From positions 1 through 35,336 of the forward strand of contig JAJQDY010000014.1 in the NCBI GenBank assembly GCA_021201965.1: 35,336 bases of DNA, given 5' to 3'. The position numbers and the translations under genes are program-made. The DNA is from Phascolarctobacterium sp. GTDB lineage: Bacteria > Bacillota > Negativicutes > Acidaminococcales > Acidaminococcaceae. Position 1 is the first letter of the stretch; each line of letters opens with the position of its first letter. Below, piece after piece: positions 150 through 21,956 of the stretch. Under the pieces are notes generated by a model, which saw only the letters and a list, made by a program, of their open reading frames with translations, was not told the origin of the DNA and did not search any database.

Positions 150-1567
150 GTGTCTGGAAACGGGAAAATAACATAGGGCATGTGGCGGGGACCGGCAGCT
201 TTTGCTGCGGCAGTGTCCGTTCCGGGAAGCTATTTCGGTTTTAAGGCGGCTGCAGCGTTCGGCACGGTGGTCTGGATGGGAATCTGGTGGATTGCCCGCC
301 CTGTACACAGTGCGGTAACGGCCCTTCTTCCAATAGTAATAAACGCCCTGCTTGACCTGGTTCCCATGGTCCCATAGTAGGCCAGTATTTTTCAGAAATC
401 ATAGTGCTGCTCCTCGGCGCAGACATTGTCTGCACGAGCTGGACGGTAACGGGTCTTGACAAGAGCCTGTCGCTGATGGTTTTATGTTTTCTCGGCAATT
501 CCCTTAAACAGCAGATTGCCGTGTGGTTGATTGCGTTGGCACTGCTTTCCGTTTTCATGCCCAATGCCGTGGTATGCACGCTTCTTGTGCCCGTGGCCAT
601 TTCCATGCTGCGCTTTATTGGGGAGGAATCCGTGGAAAAAAGCAGAATAGCCGTACCTATCCTCCTTGCTATTGCCTTGGGCGCGGGTATTGGCGGGGTA
701 GGGTCTCCTTTAGGCGGTGCGGCAAACCTTGTTGCGATTAATTACCTGGAAAAGCTGAGCGGAAGGGAGTTTATGTACGTGGACTGGTTCACCCGCTTCC
801 TGTCATTCATCTTTGCCCTGTGCCTCGTAAACCTTTTCTTTCTTTTAGGCCCGCCGCTGCCGGTAAAAAAACTGCCGGGCTCCAAAGAGTATTTCGGCGG
901 CCTTTACATGGATCTCGACAGCATGGGTCATGCCGAAAAAGTCAGCCTGGGGCTTTTTCTTGCTGTAATGCTGCTTTCATTTGCAAGGCCGCTTTTTGCG
1001 GATCTGCTCCCCGGGTTTAAGCCAGCCTATATCTTTATGACTTTCGGCCTTGTCGGCTTTTTCCTGAAAAACGATGACGGGAAACCGATCCTGACGTTGG
1101 ATACGGCGGCAAAACATATTATGTGGGGGCTGCTCATTCTTTTCGGCGGCGTCCTTGCGCTCGGGGTGCTTGTCACAAATACCGGCGCAGCGCTGAAACT
1201 TGCGGAAGCCATAACCCTGCTGCCGCTTGCAGGCGGCAGCAGGACGGTCCTCATCTTTACGGTATTTTCCGTGCTCCTCACGGAAATTTCAAGCAATACG
1301 GCAGCGGCTGCCATTGCCATTCCCGTAATAGAGAGCATTGTGAGGACTCTTGGACTCAACCCACTGCCATACATGCTCATAGTGACGGCAGCGGTAAACA
1401 GCGCTTACATGCTTCCCGTATCCATCCGTGCCATTCCTGTAAGCCACGGCTTCGACGCATCAATCCTCTTTAAGAAGGGATTTGCGGTATCTTTGGCCAG
1501 CGTTTTTGCAATAGCTGCCCTAGGCTATGCTTTCATGAGGTTCTGGCCGGGTTACAGCGTGCTTTAA
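150..1567 (+). pseudogene. DASS/SLC13-type divalent anion:Na+ symporter, broken by a frameshift and a nonsense codon
   Basis: This is an integral membrane carrier of the divalent anion:sodium symporter family (dicarboxylates, sulfate or similar; substrate not predictable). Homologous sequence runs in two frames. From 180 it reads WWIARP...TALLPI and stops at TAG 375. The next frame carries GPIVGQYFSEI into LLLGAD and continues to 1567. Restoring one G in ATGGTCCC (366-373) fuses the two segments exactly as the family requires. The best ribosome site (GGAGGT, 136-141) lies 8 nt before a GTG at 150, but that frame meets TAG at 174-176 after eight codons. Family motifs survive: GGVGSPLGG near the first sodium site and SSNTAAAA in the second half. 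The usual second TPPN segment reads SIRAIPVSHG. Either a decaying gene or sequence errors. A weak 5-bp hairpin (1590-1607) sits between it and the convergent cbiK. Confidence 0.75.
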
Positions 1568-1642
1568 ATAATAAGGGAAATACAAAAGAACGCCTTATTC
1601 AGGGCGTCCTTAAATTTTTATGCGGAAAATAAGATTTTCTGA

Positions 1643-2455
1643 TTATTCGGAGGAATTTTCCGTCAGCGCTTCCAGGGAATGGGTTACATAAAGGGCCTGG
1701 ACGGCTTTGTTGCGGCCGATCCCGCAAAGATATCCCTCGGTTTTTATGCCGAGCGCTTCAATCTGGGATTTCCAGCTGTCCCCGTCATCACCGTACATGT
1801 CGTTTGTGGCATGGTTACCCGCAACGACCATGAGCGGGAAGAGATGGACTTTTTCCCAGCCGCGTTCTTTAAGCTTCTCGAGTACGTCGGCAAATGCCGG
1901 GCTGTCTCCCTCTTCAACGGTCCCGACAAGGGCGGGGATGCCGCGCTGGTCAAAGATTTCCTGCAGCCTATTATAGGTGCGGCCGAAGGAACGGTTATTG
2001 TCACGGGGGCTTCCGTGTCCCATAAAGACCACGCCTTCGTTTCCGCCAAGTGCCGGCAGCTGGGACTGGAGTGCCGTTATCACAATGGGGTAGTCCTCGT
2101 TGCGGTCAATAAGCGGCCTGCTGATGGTAATTTTTTTGAAGAAAGGCCGGAACCTGTCCTTCAAGGTAAGGATTTTCTGCTCGAACTCCTCCCCGTGCAA
2201 AAGATGCGTTGGCTGCAGTATTACCGTGTCATAGCCTTCCTGCCGGAGTTTTTCCATGGCAGCCTGGGGGCTTTCCACAATAATATGCTCCCCGGCAAGA
2301 TTGCGCCGGATAATATTTGAAGTAAAGGCCCGGTACTGGTCGTAATCGGGAAATGCCCCGGCCAGGGCCTGCTCAATGCCGCCTATATCCTTACTGCGCG
2401 TCCCGGCATAGGTGGAACCGAAACTTATGACTAACATGGCTTTTTTCCGTGTCAT
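1643..2455 (-). CDS. cbiK: Sirohydrochlorin cobaltochelatase, CbiK type (anaerobic cobalamin pathway)
   Basis: Inserts Co2+ into sirohydrochlorin in the oxygen-independent route to vitamin B12. The protein has 270 residues, the usual CbiK length, without a signal peptide, so it is cytoplasmic. The N-terminus carries the family signature VISFGSTYAGTR (residues 9-20). The two metal-binding/catalytic histidines of the chelatase fold are visible: H147 in GHGS and H215 in VVAGNHATNDMYGDD. Start ATG 2455 has a strong site (GGGAGGA) just upstream. No other cobalamin gene lies beside it, so B12 synthesis genes must be elsewhere if the pathway is complete. Its promoter (2514-2541) gives a leader of only about 50 nt, too short for a cobalamin riboswitch. 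A CbiK-like chelatase could also serve sirohaem synthesis. Confidence 0.93.
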   Translation of the reverse strand: MTRKKAMLVISFGSTYAGTRSKDIGGIEQALAGAFPDYDQYRAFTSNIIRRNLAGEHIIVESPQAAMEKLRQEGYDTVILQPTHLLHGEEFEQKILTLKDRFRPFFKKITISRPLIDRNEDYPIVITALQSQLPALGGNEGVVFMGHGSPRDNNRSFGRTYNRLQEIFDQRGIPALVGTVEEGDSPAFADVLEKLKERGWEKVHLFPLMVVAGNHATNDMYGDDGDSWKSQIEALGIKTEGYLCGIGRNKAVQALYVTHSLEALTENSSE

Positions 2456-12723: not shown

Positions 12724-12927
12724 TTATTTTATGCCCGTCACGTCAAAACCCGTATCTTCCACGGCTTCCCTTAAAATATTATCCGGGACGCCGCCTTCAA
12801 CCACCGCCTTATTTTTTTCAAGGCTGACGCTGACGGAAGTGATGCCGGGCACCGTCTTTAGGGCTGCCGTTACGGCATTTATGCAGTGCTCGCAGTGCAT
12901 GCCGCTTATGGAAATAGTTTTTTTCAT
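12724..12927 (-). CDS. copZ: Copper chaperone, HMA domain (CopZ-like)
   Basis: 67-residue heavy-metal-associated domain: beta-strand, GMHCEHC metal loop (CxxC binds Cu+), then helix INAVTAALKTVPG. It carries Cu(I) in the cytoplasm to the CopA ATPase encoded immediately upstream on the same strand (54-nt gap), so the two form a copA-copZ operon. The start at 12927 is supported by AAAGGAG 8 nt upstream; the longer frame starting at 12945 overlaps that site. Nothing unusual in the domain. Confidence 0.92.
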   Translation of the reverse strand: MKKTISISGMHCEHCINAVTAALKTVPGITSVSVSLEKNKAVVEGGVPDNILREAVEDTGFDVTGIK

Positions 12928-12980
12928 TTTAAAACTCCTTTGCAATTTTATTTTATTTATTTTTACAGGGATTCCTGCAT

Positions 12981-15224
12981 TTAACCCGGCGTGAAAAAGC
13001 GCAGCCTCAAGGCATTGGTCACGACGGAGACGGAGCTGAAGCTCATGGCCGCCGCGGCAATCATGGGGCTTAAGAGGATGCCGAAATGGGGGTAGAGCAC
13101 CCCTGCGGCAATGGGGATGCCGATGGAATTATAGAAAAAGGCCCAGAAGAGGTTCTGGCGGATATTTTTCATGACCGTGCGGCTGAGGCTTATTGCCTTC
13201 GGCACGTCGAGGAGGTCGCTTTTCATGAGCACTATGTCGGCAGATTCGATTGCAATATCGGTCCCCGCGCCTATGGCAATGCCGGTATCGGCCCTTGCAA
13301 GTGCCGGGGCATCGTTTATCCCATCCCCCACCATGGCGACCTTATGGCCTTTATCCTGGTATTTGCGGACAATTTTTTCCTTATCTTCAGGCAGTACTTC
13401 CGCTATCGCCTCATTTATCCCCGCTATTCCCCTTATGGCTTCTGCGGCGTGTTTATTATCCCCCGTCAGCATGATGACATTGATGCCCATACCGTGCAGC
13501 TTCCTTACCGCTTCCGTGCTGGTGGGCTTTACGGTGTCCGCGACGGCGATGATGCCGAGGAGTTTCCCTTCTGATGAAAAAAAGAGGGGCGTCTTCCCGT
13601 TTGCGGAAAGTTCTTCCGCCCTTGCGGCAAGTGGTGCCGCCTCATCCCCTAAGAACCTTGCATTGCCGGCCCTGCAGGTTTTCCCGTCCACGGCTGCCGT
13701 AAAACCGAGCCCCGGGAACATTTGATAGTCAGAGGCTTCAGGAAGGGGGAGGTCCCCCGCGGCGGCGATTACGGGCAGCGAAAGAGGATGCTCCGAAAGT
13801 TTTTCCATGGCGGCGGCAAGGGCGAGGAGCCCCTTTTCATCGGTGCCTATGGGAATGATATCCGTAACCACGGGCTTTCCTACAGTCACGGTGCCGGTCT
13901 TATCGAGGATTACCGTATCGGTGCTGCCCGCCGTTTCGAGGGCTGCGGCGGATTTAATTAAAATGCCGCCCGCGGCGCCCCTTTCGGTCCCCACCAGGAT
14001 GGCCGTCGGCGTTGCAAGGCCCAGAGCGCAGGGGCAGGAAATGACGAGTACCGATATGGCGACGGAAAGGGCGAATTCCGCACTTTTGCCCGTGGCAAGC
14101 CAGAAGACGGAGGCCGCAGCCGCAATGGTTATGACGACGGGAACGAAGATCCTGCTTATTTTATCCGCAAGCCGGGCAATGGGTGTCTTTGATGATGTTG
14201 CCTCATCGACCAGCCTTATTATTTGCGCGAGGGCCGTATTTTCGCCCACGGCACTTACCTGCATTTTGAAGTAGCCACTCTTATTTATGGTGCCGCCGGC
14301 CACCTTGTCCCCGGCGTGCTTTTCGGCGGGGATGCTCTCCCCGGTAATCGCCGCTTCGTCGATGGCGGCGGATCCTTCTGTTATGATCCCGTCCGCGGGC
14401 ACGGAAGCGCTCGCCTTGACGATGAGGACGTCCCCCGTCACCACCTCATCAAGGGGTATTTCGCCCTGCAGCCCGTGCCGCTCCACGATGGCGGTTTTCG
14501 GGGCAAGGTCCATGAGTTTCGTTATGGCGGAAGAGGTCCGTGCCTTGGCCCTAGCCTCGAGGAATTTCCCGAGGGTGATGAGGGTAAGTATCATGGCGGC
14601 GGACTCAAAGTAGAGGGTTGATGAAAAATAGCCCACGCTTTCCATGTTGCCCCGCCCCATGGCGGATGCAATCTTAAAGGAAGCGTAGATGCTGTAGGTA
14701 AAGGCGGCGCCTGAACCTATGGCTATGAGTGAATCCATGTTGGGCGCCTTTTCAAAAAGGTTCCTGAAGCCGTTTATGAAATACCTGCCGCCCGCTATGA
14801 GTACGGGTACCGTAAGGAGCAGCTGGGCGAGGACATGGACCATGGCATTCCCGGTGCCGGAAACTGACGCGGGCAGGGGGAACCCTGCCATTTTTCCCGT
14901 GGTCAGGTAAAAGAGTGGCAGCATGAAAAGGAGGGAAAAGACGAGCCTTTTTTTCAGGGCGCACATTTCGGCATCCGCGGGGTCTTCCCGCTTTTCCTTC
15001 ACGCCCGGGGCGCCGCGCAGCGATGCGCCGAAACCCATCCTTTCCACGGCGGCGGCAATGCCCCCTGCATCTATGGCTGTTTCATCGTATGTGACATACA
15101 TGCTGTTTTTAAGGAGATTGACGCTTACTTTAAGGACGCCGTCCTTCCTCTCCAGCACTTTTTCTATGCGGGCCGAGCAGGCTGAGCAGCTCATGCCCGT
15201 CACATCAAAAAGGTCCTTTTGCAT
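12981..15224 (-). CDS. copA: Copper-translocating P1B-type ATPase
   Basis: Exports Cu+ from the cytoplasm using ATP. 747 residues. One N-terminal HMA domain with GMSCSACS (CxxC at 13-16), membrane segments from about 92, the TGES actuator motif (294-297), the transmembrane copper ligand CPC (397-399), phosphorylated aspartate 441 in DKTGT, SEHP (477-480) in the nucleotide domain, and GDGINDAPAL near the C-terminus. The start at 15224 has AAAGGAGG directly upstream; that site overlaps an earlier in-frame ATG at 15239, which is therefore unlikely to be used. Promoter at 15267-15295, with an operator-like palindrome just beyond it shared with the divergent HxlR-type regulator. The set of exporter, chaperone and regulator is a copper detoxification unit. 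Confidence 0.95.
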   Translation of the reverse strand: MQKDLFDVTGMSCSACSARIEKVLERKDGVLKVSVNLLKNSMYVTYDETAIDAGGIAAAVERMGFGASLRGAPGVKEKREDPADAEMCALKKRLVFSLLFMLPLFYLTTGKMAGFPLPASVSGTGNAMVHVLAQLLLTVPVLIAGGRYFINGFRNLFEKAPNMDSLIAIGSGAAFTYSIYASFKIASAMGRGNMESVGYFSSTLYFESAAMILTLITLGKFLEARAKARTSSAITKLMDLAPKTAIVERHGLQGEIPLDEVVTGDVLIVKASASVPADGIITEGSAAIDEAAITGESIPAEKHAGDKVAGGTINKSGYFKMQVSAVGENTALAQIIRLVDEATSSKTPIARLADKISRIFVPVVITIAAAASVFWLATGKSAEFALSVAISVLVISCPCALGLATPTAILVGTERGAAGGILIKSAAALETAGSTDTVILDKTGTVTVGKPVVTDIIPIGTDEKGLLALAAAMEKLSEHPLSLPVIAAAGDLPLPEASDYQMFPGLGFTAAVDGKTCRAGNARFLGDEAAPLAARAEELSANGKTPLFFSSEGKLLGIIAVADTVKPTSTEAVRKLHGMGINVIMLTGDNKHAAEAIRGIAGINEAIAEVLPEDKEKIVRKYQDKGHKVAMVGDGINDAPALARADTGIAIGAGTDIAIESADIVLMKSDLLDVPKAISLSRTVMKNIRQNLFWAFFYNSIGIPIAAGVLYPHFGILLSPMIAAAAMSFSSVSVVTNALRLRFFTPG

Positions 15225-15243
15225 AGGCCCTCCTTTCATTTGA

Positions 15244-15258
15244 CCGGACCGGGTCCGG
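15244..15258. repeat. Short perfect palindrome in the copA leader
   Basis: CCGGACC-G-GGTCCGG, 7-bp arms with one central base, within the untranslated leader about 20 nt before the copA start. It could be an mRNA structure or a protein site. Confidence 0.55.
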
Positions 15259-15266
15259 CTGTTATT

Positions 15267-15295
15267 ATTATATTAAGCGGATATCCTTTAATCAA
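15267..15295 (-). promoter_or_regulatory. Promoter of copA-copZ
   Basis: Minus strand: TTGATT (15295-15290), a 17-nt spacer, TATAAT (15272-15267). Confidence 0.75.
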
Positions 15296-15299
15296 GAAC

Positions 15300-15321
15300 G
15301 TACTATTTTGTAAGATAGTAC
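15300..15321. promoter_or_regulatory. Operator-like inverted repeat between copA and the HxlR-type gene
   Basis: GTACTAT-N8-ATAGTAC: perfect 7-bp arms, 22 bp in total. It lies just upstream of the copA -35 and contains the probable -35 of the divergent regulator gene. Dyads of this spacing, with GTAC/ACTA-type half-sites, are what dimeric HxlR winged-helix proteins bind. Confidence 0.65.
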
Positions 15322-15336
15322 CTGAAAAGATATCTT
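15308..15336 (+). promoter_or_regulatory. Candidate promoter of the HxlR-type gene
   Basis: TTGTAA (15308-15313), 17-nt spacer, TATCTT (15331-15336). Initiation near 15343 would leave almost no room for the ribosome site of ATG 15352, so either another promoter is used or translation starts at ATG 15421. Confidence 0.4.
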
Positions 15337-15351
15337 AAAGGGGATGGGACT

Positions 15352-15786
15352 ATGGCAAAGGATAACGATAAGGATAAAAAGGCGAAGAAGGACAGGGCGA
15401 AAAAAGAGAAGGTAAAGGCCATGGAAAGGGTATCGAACGCAAATTGCCCGGTGGCCGCCGCCTTAAAGCTCATAGGGGGAAAATATAAGGCGCTTATTTT
15501 ATGGCACCTTTTAGATAGCGTGCTGCGCTTCAGCGAACTTAAAAAACTGGTGCCGGAGGCCACGTCCAAAATGCTGACCCAGCAGCTCAGGGAACTGGAG
15601 GATGACGGGCTTATAGGCAGGAAGGTATATCCCGTGGTGCCGCCCAAGGTGGAATATTCTCTGACGGGGCTCGGGAAAAGCCTTTTCCCGATTTTAAAGG
15701 CCATGTATGAATGGGGCAGCGACCTTATGCGCAGCGAAGGGAAAGTCCCAGGATGTTCCATGGGAAGTCCCACGGTGCGTGAATGA
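15352..15786 (+). CDS. HxlR-family winged-helix transcriptional regulator
   Basis: 144 residues. The conserved HxlR domain runs from about residue 30 to 125: [20 protein letters not shown], then RFSELKK, the recognition region [15 protein letters not shown] and the wing PPKVEYSLT. HxlR proteins are dimeric regulators that usually sense electrophiles, thiol stress or aldehydes through the conserved cysteine (C32 here). The only other cysteine is C135 near the C-terminus. An unusual Lys/Asp-rich N-terminal tail of about 24 residues precedes the domain; ATG 15421 (residue 24) would remove it. The start at 15352 has AAGGGGAT upstream. Its divergence from copA with a shared palindrome suggests it controls copper export, a job normally done by CsoR, CopY or CueR. 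Confidence 0.88.
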
Positions 15787-16958: not shown

Positions 16959-17494
16959 ATGCTGAAGGAAGTAATCATAGTTGAAGGGAAGATGGATACC
17001 GCGGCCGTAAAAATGGCAGTTGACGCAGATACCATTGAAACGGGAGGGTTCACTTTATCCCCCGTACAATTAAACAGATAGAAGCCGCCTACAGAAGGCG
17101 GGGAATCATTATTTTAACGGATCCGGATGGCGCTGGCGAGCGGATCCGTAAATATTTAACGGAGAAATTCCAGGCAGCAGGCCAGGCATTCATCCCAAGG
17201 GCCGATGCCACGGCGGAAGGTGACGCGGGGGTCGAATGCGCGGCCTTGGCGGCTATAGCCGCCGCGCTGGCAAAAGTGAGGTACCACGAGACGGAGCTGG
17301 GAAGTGAATTTACCGAAAAGGATCTTTTCGCAAACGGCCTCAGCGGGTTGGAAGGCGCCGTCGTAAGGTGTGACGCCCTCGGGGCATCCCTCGGGATAGG
17401 CTTCGGCAACGCAAAGAGGTTACTTGAAAGACTGAATCGCTACGGCGGCGTCACGCAGGATGAATTTGACGCCGCCTTAAAGGAGATTAAATGA
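16959..17494 (+). pseudogene. rnmV: Ribonuclease M5 (5S rRNA maturase), frameshifted
   Basis: RNase M5 trims 5S rRNA precursors in Firmicutes. The first frame, from ATG 16959, gives the Toprim start EVIIVEGKMDTAAVK and TIETGGFTLSP, then stops at TAG near 17080. The second frame supplies RTIKQIEAAYRRRG followed by IIILTDPDGAGERIR with the Toprim DxD, and runs to TGA 17494. Adding one C to the five-C run at 17059-17063 joins the parts into a 178-residue protein of normal length and order. The stop overlaps the ksgA start (ATGA). RNase M5 is dispensable in B. subtilis, so loss is possible, but a one-base homopolymer slip may equally be a consensus error. Confidence 0.8.
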
Positions 17495-19048: not shown

Positions 19049-19108
19049 AGAACGTTTTTTCCCGGGATGTTTTATAATAAAAAATTTTCTCTAAAGGGAG
19101 GAAAAGAC

Positions 19109-20317
19109 ATGAAAAAAAGTTTAGTACTCGCAATGGCAATGGCTTTGGGCATTACCGCCTCCGCTTATGCAGCCAACCCGTTCAGAGATGTTCCCGCAGG
19201 CCACTGGGCTTACGACAGCATTGCCAAACTGGCGGCGGCAGGCGTGGTTGACGGCTATCCTGACGGCACATTCGGCGGCAGCCGGCTCATGACGCGCTAC
19301 GAAATGGCCCAGATCGTTGCAAGGGCAATGTCAAAAGGCGCAAACGTTGACCGTCTGGCAGAGGAATTTGCTGATGAGCTTGACGCCTTAGGAGTACGCG
19401 TTGCCCGTCTTGAGAAAAACGCTGACAACGTGAAGATCACTGCACAGATCCGTTACAACTATTCCAATGTGCACACACGTTACAGCTATTCCAGAAGCAA
19501 CCTGCGTACCCGTATGTATGTAAGGGGCCAGGCCAATGACGACTGGGGTTACGTTGGCATGTTCCAGAACATCCAGCAGTTTGCCCACAACAACATGGAA
19601 GAAAACACCACTGACTTCCAGCGCGCATTCGCTAACGGCCGTATCGGCGGTGTGAAGATTACCGCCGGCCGTTACAACCTGACCGACTATACCGCCAACG
19701 AAGGTATGATTTATGATACCCGTTTCGACGGAATCGAGGCTATTTACGGCAAGGAGCTGCAGCTGATTGTCGGCGGCGGCAAGGCATCAGACAGCAAGAG
19801 CGAAGGCGGCAGTGCTGCTGACGATACCTACTATGCCAATTTGAAATGTGATTTCGGCAAGAGGTCTGCCATTAACGTCGGCTACTACAAATGGCATGAC
19901 GTTACGAAATTCCTGGGTGGTTCCTATGATTCCTGCGACGGACTATGGAACGTTGGCCTGAAACTCGGCGTGGCCAAAGACGTGAAAATACTCTTTGACT
20001 ACCTGCGCAGTGACGTTGATACCCCGTCCGGCAAAAACGGCTATGTAATAGGCGCGAACCTCTTTGGCGCAAAGGCTACCAAACCCGGTACCTTCGGCAT
20101 TACCGTGAAACACTTTGACCAGCCGGCAGGCACCGTAATGACCCATACCATGAACGGCGATTACGATACTATGGGCTTTAAGGGCTGGATGGTTGCAGGT
20201 TACTACACATTCGCCAAGAACCTGGTCGGCGGCATTGAATGGTACGACTTAAAGAGCAAGGTTGATTCCTCAGGAAACAATGAGACCCTGTGGAGCCAGC
20301 TGATCCTCACATTCTAA
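19109..20317 (+). CDS. ompM: OmpM-type outer-membrane porin with SLH domain, copy 1
   Basis: 402 residues. Signal peptide MKKSLVLAMAMALG...AYA (cleavage near 21), one SLH domain at about 24-76 (FRDVPAGHWAYDSIAKL, DGYPDGTFGG, TRYEMAQ), a helical spacer at 80-103 (DRLAEEFADELDALGVRVA) and a C-terminal beta-barrel ending in ILTF with terminal Phe for BAM recognition. In Negativicutes the SLH domain binds polyamine-modified peptidoglycan, so the protein is both a general porin and the tether between wall and outer membrane. Start 19109 has AGGGAGG 7 nt before it; the frame is open further upstream but lies in the leader. First of three tandem copies, with its own promoter, leader and terminator. 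Confidence 0.92.
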   Translation: MKKSLVLAMAMALGITASAYAANPFRDVPAGHWAYDSIAKLAAAGVVDGYPDGTFGGSRLMTRYEMAQIVARAMSKGANVDRLAEEFADELDALGVRVARLEKNADNVKITAQIRYNYSNVHTRYSYSRSNLRTRMYVRGQANDDWGYVGMFQNIQQFAHNNMEENTTDFQRAFANGRIGGVKITAGRYNLTDYTANEGMIYDTRFDGIEAIYGKELQLIVGGGKASDSKSEGGSAADDTYYANLKCDFGKRSAINVGYYKWHDVTKFLGGSYDSCDGLWNVGLKLGVAKDVKILFDYLRSDVDTPSGKNGYVIGANLFGAKATKPGTFGITVKHFDQPAGTVMTHTMNGDYDTMGFKGWMVAGYYTFAKNLVGGIEWYDLKSKVDSSGNNETLWSQLILTF

Positions 20318-20665: not shown

Positions 20666-20717
20666 CTCCCGGATGTTTTATAATAAAAAAATTTTTTCCA
20701 AAGGGAGGAAAAGAAAC

Positions 20718-21956
20718 ATGAAAAAAAGTTTAGTACTCGCAATGGCTATGGCTTTGGGTGTCACCGCCTCAGCTTATGCAGCCAATCCGTTTAGCGATGT
20801 TCCTGCAGGCCACTGGGCTTACGACAGCATTGCTAAATTGGCAGCAGCAGGCGTAGTTGACGGTTATCCTGACGGTACATTCGGCGGCGACCGCCTGTTG
20901 ACCCGTTACGAGATGGCTCAGGTTGTTGCAAGGGCAATGGCAAAAGGCGCAAACGTTGACCGTCTGGCAGCTGAATTTGCTGATGAGCTGGACGCTCTTG
21001 GTGTTCGCGTTGCTCGTCTTGAGAAAAACGCTGATAACGTAAAGATCACCGGCCAGATCCGTTACAGCTATGATGCCTCTCACAGCGATGCATACGGCTC
21101 CGCAAGCAACCTGCGTACCCGTATCTGGTTCAGGGGTCAGGCTAATGACAATTGGGCATACACTGGAATGGTTCAGAACATCCAGAACTTTGCTCACAAC
21201 AACGTGGAAGAAAACCGCACCGATTGGCAGCGTGCCTGGGTTGACGGACGTGTCGGCGGCGTTAAAGTAATGGCCGGCCGTTACAATTTCACCGACTTCC
21301 TGCAGAACCGCGGTTACATGCATGATGCTCGTTTTGATGGCGGCGAACTCTCCTATGGTAAAAACATTAAACTTACAGTTGGCGGCGGCAAAGTTTCTGA
21401 TAGCGTAACTGAAGGTTCCAGTATTGGTGACGATGCAATATACGCAGACCTGCGCTACCAGACAAAGGGCATCGGCGCTAACGTTTCTTACTACGGAGTA
21501 AAAGATTTAGGAAAAGGTGGAAGCAATGATGCGACGAAAGGTAGCCGCTTTGGTAAATTCGTTGACCATGACGTTGATCTCTTCACTGCTGGCGTAAGCT
21601 TTGGTATTGCTAAGGACGACGTTAAACTTGCCGTTGACTACCTGCACTCCAGCCTTGGCTCTCAGACGACTAAAGATGGCGTGCTCATCGGCCTGAATGT
21701 TCTCGGAGCAAAGGCTTCCAAACCCGGTACTTTCGGCGTATGGGCTAAATACCTGAACCAGCCTGCAGGAACCATCTGGAACAGCACAATGCCTTTCTCC
21801 AGCTACTCCAGGACAGGCTATGAAGGCGGAGCTGTTGGTGCAGACTATACATTCGCTAAGAACCTGGTTGGCGCTGTACACTACTACAACCTGGATGCCA
21901 AGAATGGCGGCGTTGACACAGAGACCCTGTGGACCCAGCTCATTCTCACATTCTAA
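20718..21956 (+). CDS. ompM: OmpM-type outer-membrane porin with SLH domain, copy 2
   Basis: 412 residues, same architecture as the gene before it: near-identical signal peptide, SLH domain (FSDVPAGHWAYDSIAKLAAAG, GDRLLTRYEMAQVV), helical spacer and a diverged barrel ending QLILTF. Barrel loops differ clearly between copies (for example VKDLGKGGSNDATKGSRFGK here), suggesting altered pore or antigenic surface. Its more A/T-ending codon choice (gct, gtt, aaa) compared with copy 1 fits a highly expressed gene, so this may be the main porin. Start 20718 has AGGGAGG upstream. Monocistronic: own promoter at 20486 and terminator at 21978. Confidence 0.92.
   Translation: MKKSLVLAMAMALGVTASAYAANPFSDVPAGHWAYDSIAKLAAAGVVDGYPDGTFGGDRLLTRYEMAQVVARAMAKGANVDRLAAEFADELDALGVRVARLEKNADNVKITGQIRYSYDASHSDAYGSASNLRTRIWFRGQANDNWAYTGMVQNIQNFAHNNVEENRTDWQRAWVDGRVGGVKVMAGRYNFTDFLQNRGYMHDARFDGGELSYGKNIKLTVGGGKVSDSVTEGSSIGDDAIYADLRYQTKGIGANVSYYGVKDLGKGGSNDATKGSRFGKFVDHDVDLFTAGVSFGIAKDDVKLAVDYLHSSLGSQTTKDGVLIGLNVLGAKASKPGTFGVWAKYLNQPAGTIWNSTMPFSSYSRTGYEGGAVGADYTFAKNLVGAVHYYNLDAKNGGVDTETLWTQLILTF

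Follow-up and report, generated by a model that had tools for sequence, protein, structure and literature searches.

How is the copper exporter of this Phascolarctobacterium controlled, and by what kind of protein? In the window, by which we mean the whole 35,336-nucleotide stretch of DNA analysed here, the copper genes copA and copZ are divergent from a gene encoding a regulator of the HxlR family. According to the available text of a 2022 review (PMC9470648), the one-component sensors of cytosolic Cu(I) are CueR, CsoR and CopY; the HxlR protein would resemble these three in its proposed job and in its neighbours copA and copZ, while belonging to an unrelated protein family. An initial annotation of the locus had put it forward as a candidate copper regulator, a candidacy which the conserved gene pair and a C-terminal tail motif now support. 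From the comparisons set out below we consider it likely that the HxlR protein is a Cu(I)-responsive regulator of copA acting through an operator between hxlR and copA. Family and job are each known already; that the family performs this job would be the new element. A literature search of titles and the beginnings of abstracts, with most subscription journals outside its coverage, found no HxlR copper regulator, and the accessible portions of PMC6719527, PMC10581047, PMC8617998, PMC11665356 and PMC3616900 mention HxlR without such a link. The features on which the argument turns are as follows.

12724-12945, minus strand: copZ, HMA copper chaperone, downstream of copA (domain matches).
12981-15239, minus strand: copA, copper-exporting P1B ATPase with one HMA domain (domain matches).
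15267-15295, minus strand: copA promoter-like site, with -35 TTGATT (15295-15290), 17 bp and -10 TATAAT (15272-15267) (promoter scan).
15293-15335, no strand: composite operator-like stretch, comprising a CAAG element, the dyad, then CTGAAAAGATATCT.
15300-15321, no strand: dyad GTACTAT-N8-ATAGTAC, likely operator core (exact match and relatives' sites).
15352-15786, plus strand: hxlR, HxlR/DUF24 winged-helix regulator with a Lys-rich N-terminal extension, C32 and a C-terminal C135-x-M137.

The coordinates and Pfam matches confirm that hxlR diverges from copA-copZ, as originally described, and that the dyad (GTACTATTTTGTAAGATAGTAC at 15300-15321) is perfect, with zero mismatches; it lies inside the 112 bp gap between the two genes and is the sole perfect copy found in a genome-wide search of the 1.375 Mb assembly. 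The genome has one close CopA, the next-best match having 33% identity. The dyad had also been said to abut both promoters. On the copA side this holds, the -35 starting 4 bp after the dyad; on the hxlR side the promoter scan lists no promoter, and a -10 within the right arm of the dyad, seen by reading, is only probable. The hxlR start codon lies 30 bp from the dyad, so that the right arm is the most likely place for this -10, and since the dyad then seems to overlap it, hxlR is probably autoregulated. In 5000 dinucleotide shuffles of the gap a perfect palindrome with 7-bp arms arose 335 times with spacers of 4-12 and 43 times with a spacer of 8; judged from the window alone the dyad is only mildly unusual. 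Because this single-sequence case is weak, conservation among relatives has to carry the argument. A perfect GC-rich palindrome in the copA leader, CCGGACCGGGTCCGG (15244-15258), just past the expected transcription start, was considered as a second operator and discarded, being by eye absent from the leaders of relatives. With two mismatches allowed the dyad occurs at seven places in the assembly, of which five were inspected. Four fall within open frames (L128/C14 in an mltG-like gene and L129/C78 in a leucyl-tRNA-synthetase-like gene, names read by eye; L004; L130) and the fifth (L002/C11) within the body of a membrane-protein gene that a stop and a frameshift interrupt; with all five inside genes, a genome-wide dyad regulon is rejected for now.

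That broken membrane-protein gene (L002, G000 contig C11, about 901-2063, minus strand) reads by eye as divalent-metal-transporter-like, with the in-frame stop and frameshift present in the draft. Within the window, a ribonuclease M5-like (Toprim) gene at 16959-17494 (plus strand), between a 3D-domain-like protein and ksgA (read by eye), likewise appears frameshifted, with 40 codons leading to a stop at 17079-17081 and the remainder in another frame, which could be an assembly error in the draft genome. Two tandem and similar genes for SLH-domain outer-membrane porin-like proteins (read by eye), of a kind expected in Negativicutes, follow at 19067-20317 and 20673-21956 (plus strand).

The hxlR product matches PF01638 (E 3.6e-33; 113.7 bits against a curated cut-off of 20.8). 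This is its sole Pfam match up to E 0.001, with none to PF02583, PF03965 or MerR, and it is the only HxlR match in its own genome. Both cysteines reported earlier, C32 and C135, are present in the translation. Close relatives lack the Lys/Asp-rich N-terminal extension of about 23 residues (window 15352-15420), and Met24 is an alternative start; Met1 is favoured by the usual distance of about 25-34 bp between dyad and start. An AlphaFold2 monomer model built on alignment A1 has a mean pLDDT of 87.2, the tail block 131-140 averaging 73. C32 is invariant in A1, and helix 1 of the model (33-41) starts there. The top Foldseek matches of the model were 7kd3, 7bze, 7bzg and 4a5n, so that the nearest solved folds are 7kd3, then Bacillus subtilis HxlR and HypR, with YodB further down (5hs7, rank 15). 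The closest solved structure, CdTR_3200 from Clostridioides difficile (PDB 7kd3; rank 1 with Foldseek, and E 2.4e-44 in a separate search), aligns over query residues 27-128, its 114-residue chain ending before the position of the Cys-x-Met tail.

Comparison with the two better-known B. subtilis members brings out what is particular to the window protein. With HxlR (PDB 7bzd, 7bzg) it has in common the fold, the family, the N-terminal cysteine and the dimer. In HxlR, according to the portion of the report available, formaldehyde bridges Cys11 to Lys13 and the Cys-x-Lys motif is required (PMC7835342), whereas helix 1 of the window protein lacks Cys-x-Lys and reads Cys32-Pro-Val34, with Val34 invariant in A1; it has in addition the Cys-x-Met tail and the copA-copZ neighbour. 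In YodB (PDB 5hs7-5hs9), a sensor of quinone and diamide, the accessible text describes a pairing of the N-terminal Cys6 with Cys101' of the partner and a preference for TACT-N7-AGTA (PMC8063818). Both proteins have a second cysteine near the C-terminus and a TACT/AGTA palindrome, the Cys pairing itself being that of YodB, as far as this source goes; the spacing here is TACT-N12-AGTA, the last modelled helix ends before the tail that carries Cys135, and Met137 is conserved.

Gene adjacency by itself is no proof of regulation. The initial annotation had suggested asking whether the pair is conserved in relatives, and it is, strongly. Among the best 80 of 529 loci gathered from genome contigs by similarity to the HxlR protein, 47 show a CopA match that diverges from hxlR at a distance of up to 1.5 kb, and 2 more have CopA elsewhere in the locus (L066, where hxlR has beside it an HMA protein carrying a DsbD_2-like membrane part, and L072); at another, L068, an HMA-HMA copA-like N-terminus is cut by the contig end. 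In these best 80 loci the pair recurs in Negativicutes, Clostridia, Betaproteobacteria, Gilliamella, Desulfovibrionaceae and one archaeon, its hosts including Phascolarctobacterium, Lachnospiraceae, Oscillospiraceae, Christensenellaceae, Parasutterella, Sutterella, Oxalobacter, Saezia, Gilliamella, Desulfovibrionaceae and a Methanomethylophilaceae archaeon, together with a less sure Coriobacteriales bacterium (L072). Many of the hosts are gut anaerobes.

Whole genomes give a second view of the pairing. In 61 related genomes, 55 copA genes were listed in 53 genomes (E up to 1e-110); 24 have a CsoR gene within 1.5 kb, 10 a close HxlR relative (at least 65% identity, drawn from the ten strongest HxlR places in the 61 genomes), 21 neither and none both. 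At the 30 of these copA loci that were examined, the same ten alone have an HxlR relative, whatever its kind, and four of the ten HxlR-copA genomes are without any CsoR-family gene. At copA, HxlR thus appears to stand in place of CsoR, the two being mutually exclusive there in this set of genomes. The three genomes with the CopA closest to that of the window (G016, G026, G032) have no HxlR and no dyad at copA and no CsoR-family gene; one of them (G026) has a single HxlR relative, unlinked to copA. In a spread of 159 genomes across the phylum CopA was found in 136 (E up to 1e-130), and 23 HxlR places in 19 genomes passed E 1e-29, namely that of the window and 22 others in 18 genomes, none of which is within 1.5 kb of copA among the matches listed. 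With the window alone paired among the matches listed, the pair is uncommon phylum-wide and concentrated in certain lineages. On plasmids, HxlR relatives were found in 1405 records, 3 of which reach 60% identity.

The relatives define a composite operator-like stretch of which the dyad forms the core. The consensus of 50 distinct copA- or metallothionein-linked sites is CAAGtAt-GCACTaTtTtGt.a.ATAgTAc-CcaaaaNGATACtat, about 45 bp and followed in part by the window; it would be long enough for two dimers, and its CAAG element shares bases with the complement of TTG in the copA -35. A site with at most two departures from the degenerate motif is present at 48 of the 58 copA-linked loci, and a TTG starts 4 bp past it on the copA side in 46 of these 48, compared with 6 of 48 on the hxlR side. 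The best -10 follows after 15-18 bp, the spacing being 16 bp in 31 of the 46 copA-side promoters. At 30 copA promoters the best dyad match has 0-4 mismatches where HxlR is present (10 promoters) and 4-7 where it is absent (20), two of the HxlR-linked promoters (G007, G020) having a 4-mismatch dyad only, which is not significant singly (p about 0.13-0.15). The operator was rejected as a mark of copper control, because 35 distinct sites of unlinked HxlR relatives, compared with the linked set, give a nearly identical consensus; the TTG at +4 is also found in 26 of the 35. Two relatives without Cys-x-Met (L061, L064), divergent from nitroreductase-like genes (read by eye), have the same operator layout, which indicates that one operator type serves different signals.

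Unlike the operator, the Cys-x-Met tail appears to mark copper linkage among HxlR relatives. Of 108 distinct HxlR proteins, 61 are linked, either to copA (58) or to a metallothionein-like ORF (3), and 47 are unlinked. Cys-x-Met follows the winged helix in 60 of the former and in 2 of the latter (Fisher 8.6e-27, not corrected for kinship). For this count 108 of 110 proteins were kept, the alignment-identical rows L039 and L040 being dropped; L001 and L005 were dropped as copies of the window, L068 was placed by hand in the copA group and L057, L063 and L078 in the metallothionein-like group, an over-long reading of L046 was swapped for one from a later Met, and L072 was put with the linked proteins despite a CopA match that is split in two and lies more than 2 kb away. 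Within the otherwise variable tail of the copA group, all 58 proteins have C135 and 57 of them M137; the tail cysteine lies 14 residues after a Trp in 54 of the 58 and 15 residues after it in 3, leaving 1 without a measured distance. The residue between the Cys and the Met is variable (Ser, Phe, Gly, Thr and others). In A1, C135 and M137 alone are invariant beyond W121-G122; the 56 proteins of this alignment were chosen for the motif, so that this invariance is partly by choice and the 108-protein count is fairer. The N-terminal Cys32 is shared by 56 of 58 copA-linked proteins (the other 2 being gaps) and 43 of 47 unlinked ones. Being common to both groups, it is a family cysteine, and the tail is the special feature. 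Cysteine and methionine are standard Cu(I) ligands, and C32, C135 and M137 are probable ligands for Cu(I) in the window protein.

The exceptions to the tail association are few. The sole linked protein without Cys-x-Met is archaeal (L108), and the two unlinked proteins with it (L060, L067) have no copper gene in view, their neighbours looking like a methyltransferase and a SufC-like ATPase. Three Cys-Phe-Met proteins without copA (L057, L063, L078) are divergent from small Cys-rich ORFs that sit under an HxlR-type operator and share a core of the type CKCPxCKC...PCPCGC with 11 cysteines, the longest readings having 12-14. These ORFs are apparently metallothionein-like, to judge from their cysteine pattern; a scan of two of them against Pfam and NCBIfam gave no match. 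L060 falls in the same small clade of the tree as these three proteins, and no Cys-rich metallothionein-like ORF was seen at its locus. On a tree of the winged-helix core, in which many forks are poorly resolved, the linked and unlinked labels change 5 times, compared with a mean of 35.6 when shuffled. The linked proteins are a few clades and not 60 independent events, for which reason the Fisher value overstates independence; the association between tail and copper is strong but rests on few events.

Could the pair owe its distribution to descent, one ancestral hxlR-copA pair having spread horizontally with no functional coupling? The linked proteins do cluster on the tree, and the hosts come from several phyla, many of them being gut bacteria. 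Against this, the position of the operator relative to the copA -35 is kept while the remaining sequence diverges, Cys-x-Met is retained in a variable tail, a sister group retains the motif with a different, Cys-rich target, and the genomes with the closest CopA that have no HxlR at copA (G016, G026, G032) also lack the dyad there; we give mere inheritance hardly any credence. A regulator encoded elsewhere is another matter that the initial annotation had raised, naming a CsoR or CopY controlling copA as one case against HxlR. In the 96%-complete assembly the CopY-type model PF03965 has zero matches, as has PF13411, which of the two MerR models (PF13411 and PF00376) is the one that the search covered. 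The CsoR half of that case stands differently, as two CsoR-family (PF02583) genes exist (C12:7808-8044 and C89:5283-5519) and action in trans is possible; one of their products might control copA, with HxlR regulating only itself. Both proteins carry Cys-His-Cys residues (read by eye), and their best NCBIfam scores are to RicR, well below its cut-off. Neither gene is near copA. The C89 gene (L127) has as neighbours two UspA-like genes and one resembling pyruvate-ferredoxin oxidoreductase (read by eye), and the C12 gene (L126) adjoins a MATE-type transporter gene (read by eye), upstream of which lies TATCCCCATATAGGGGTTA (L126, 6411-6429), which resembles a CsoR-type operator. The L126 protein is therefore a candidate regulator of the MATE transporter, and TATCCCCATATAGGGGTTA has no other copy in the genome within 3 mismatches. 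Four of the ten HxlR-copA genomes manage without a CsoR-family gene. Control of copA by CsoR in trans seems very improbable.

The nature of the signal is a separate matter. HxlR might control copA and yet sense the thiol stress that accompanies copper excess (electrophiles, quinones or disulfide), through a Cys32-Cys135' disulfide or alkylation as in YodB, copper acting indirectly. The cysteine at the start of helix 1 is indeed the sensing residue of the family, as Cys6/Cys101' of YodB (PMC8063818) and Cys11 of HxlR (PMC7835342) illustrate in the parts of these papers available, and Cys32 is present in linked and unlinked proteins alike. However, Met137, which a disulfide does not need, is kept as well as Cys135 (57/58), and the Lys at Cys+2 needed for formaldehyde in HxlR, according to the same portion of PMC7835342, is here Val34. 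Many of the hosts are gut anaerobes, and the genes to which these regulators are linked encode CopA, HMA proteins and Cys-rich proteins, the neighbours of L060 and L067 being different. We regard thiol sensing as rather unlikely. Of the two signals suggested originally, Cu(I) or copper-generated electrophiles, the Cys-x-Met tail favours direct binding of Cu(I) over the electrophiles.

For direct Cu(I) sensing we infer the following mode of DNA binding, Cu(I) ligation and subunit arrangement. The HxlR protein would sit as a homodimer, possibly as tandem dimers, on the composite operator between hxlR and copA and would make copA-copZ expression dependent on cytosolic Cu(I). Its sensing site would comprise Cys32, where helix 1 begins within the dimer interface, and the Cys135/Met137 tail, probably that of the partner subunit, as is proposed by analogy with the Cys6-Cys101' pair of YodB. 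Bound Cu(I) would tie the tail to helix 1, shift the spacing of the recognition helices and change the occupancy of the operator, the outcome being expression of copA-copZ when copper is in excess. As to the sign of control, we lean only slightly towards derepression, in which the apo-protein would lie over the flank of the copA -35 and be released by copper, the alternative being copper-dependent activation from a site centred near -50. In favour of repression are the near-consensus core promoter of copA and an operator element that overlaps the -35 of this promoter; in favour of activation are the constant 4-bp offset, the centring of the dyad near -50 and the activator role of HxlR, the founder of the family.

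On balance we favour a wider reading, with somewhat less assurance than we attach to the regulation of copA itself. The HxlR clade with an N-terminal Cys and a Cys-x-Met tail may constitute a fourth family of one-component sensors for cytosolic Cu(I), descended from sensors of thiol stress that gained the Met-containing tail, so that an inter-subunit Cys-Cys redox switch became an inter-subunit Cu(I) site, taking the place of CsoR at copA and being re-used in some lineages for a metallothionein-like gene. If this is true, an HxlR-type copper switch would be added to the three that are usually listed, CueR, CsoR and CopY, and would account for the control of copA in relatives of Phascolarctobacterium and in other bacteria without CsoR beside copA. 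It would offer a rule for annotation, an N-terminal Cys followed by Cys-x-Met 14 residues after the Trp, and it would describe a simple route by which a two-cysteine redox switch may turn into a metal site by gaining one methionine.
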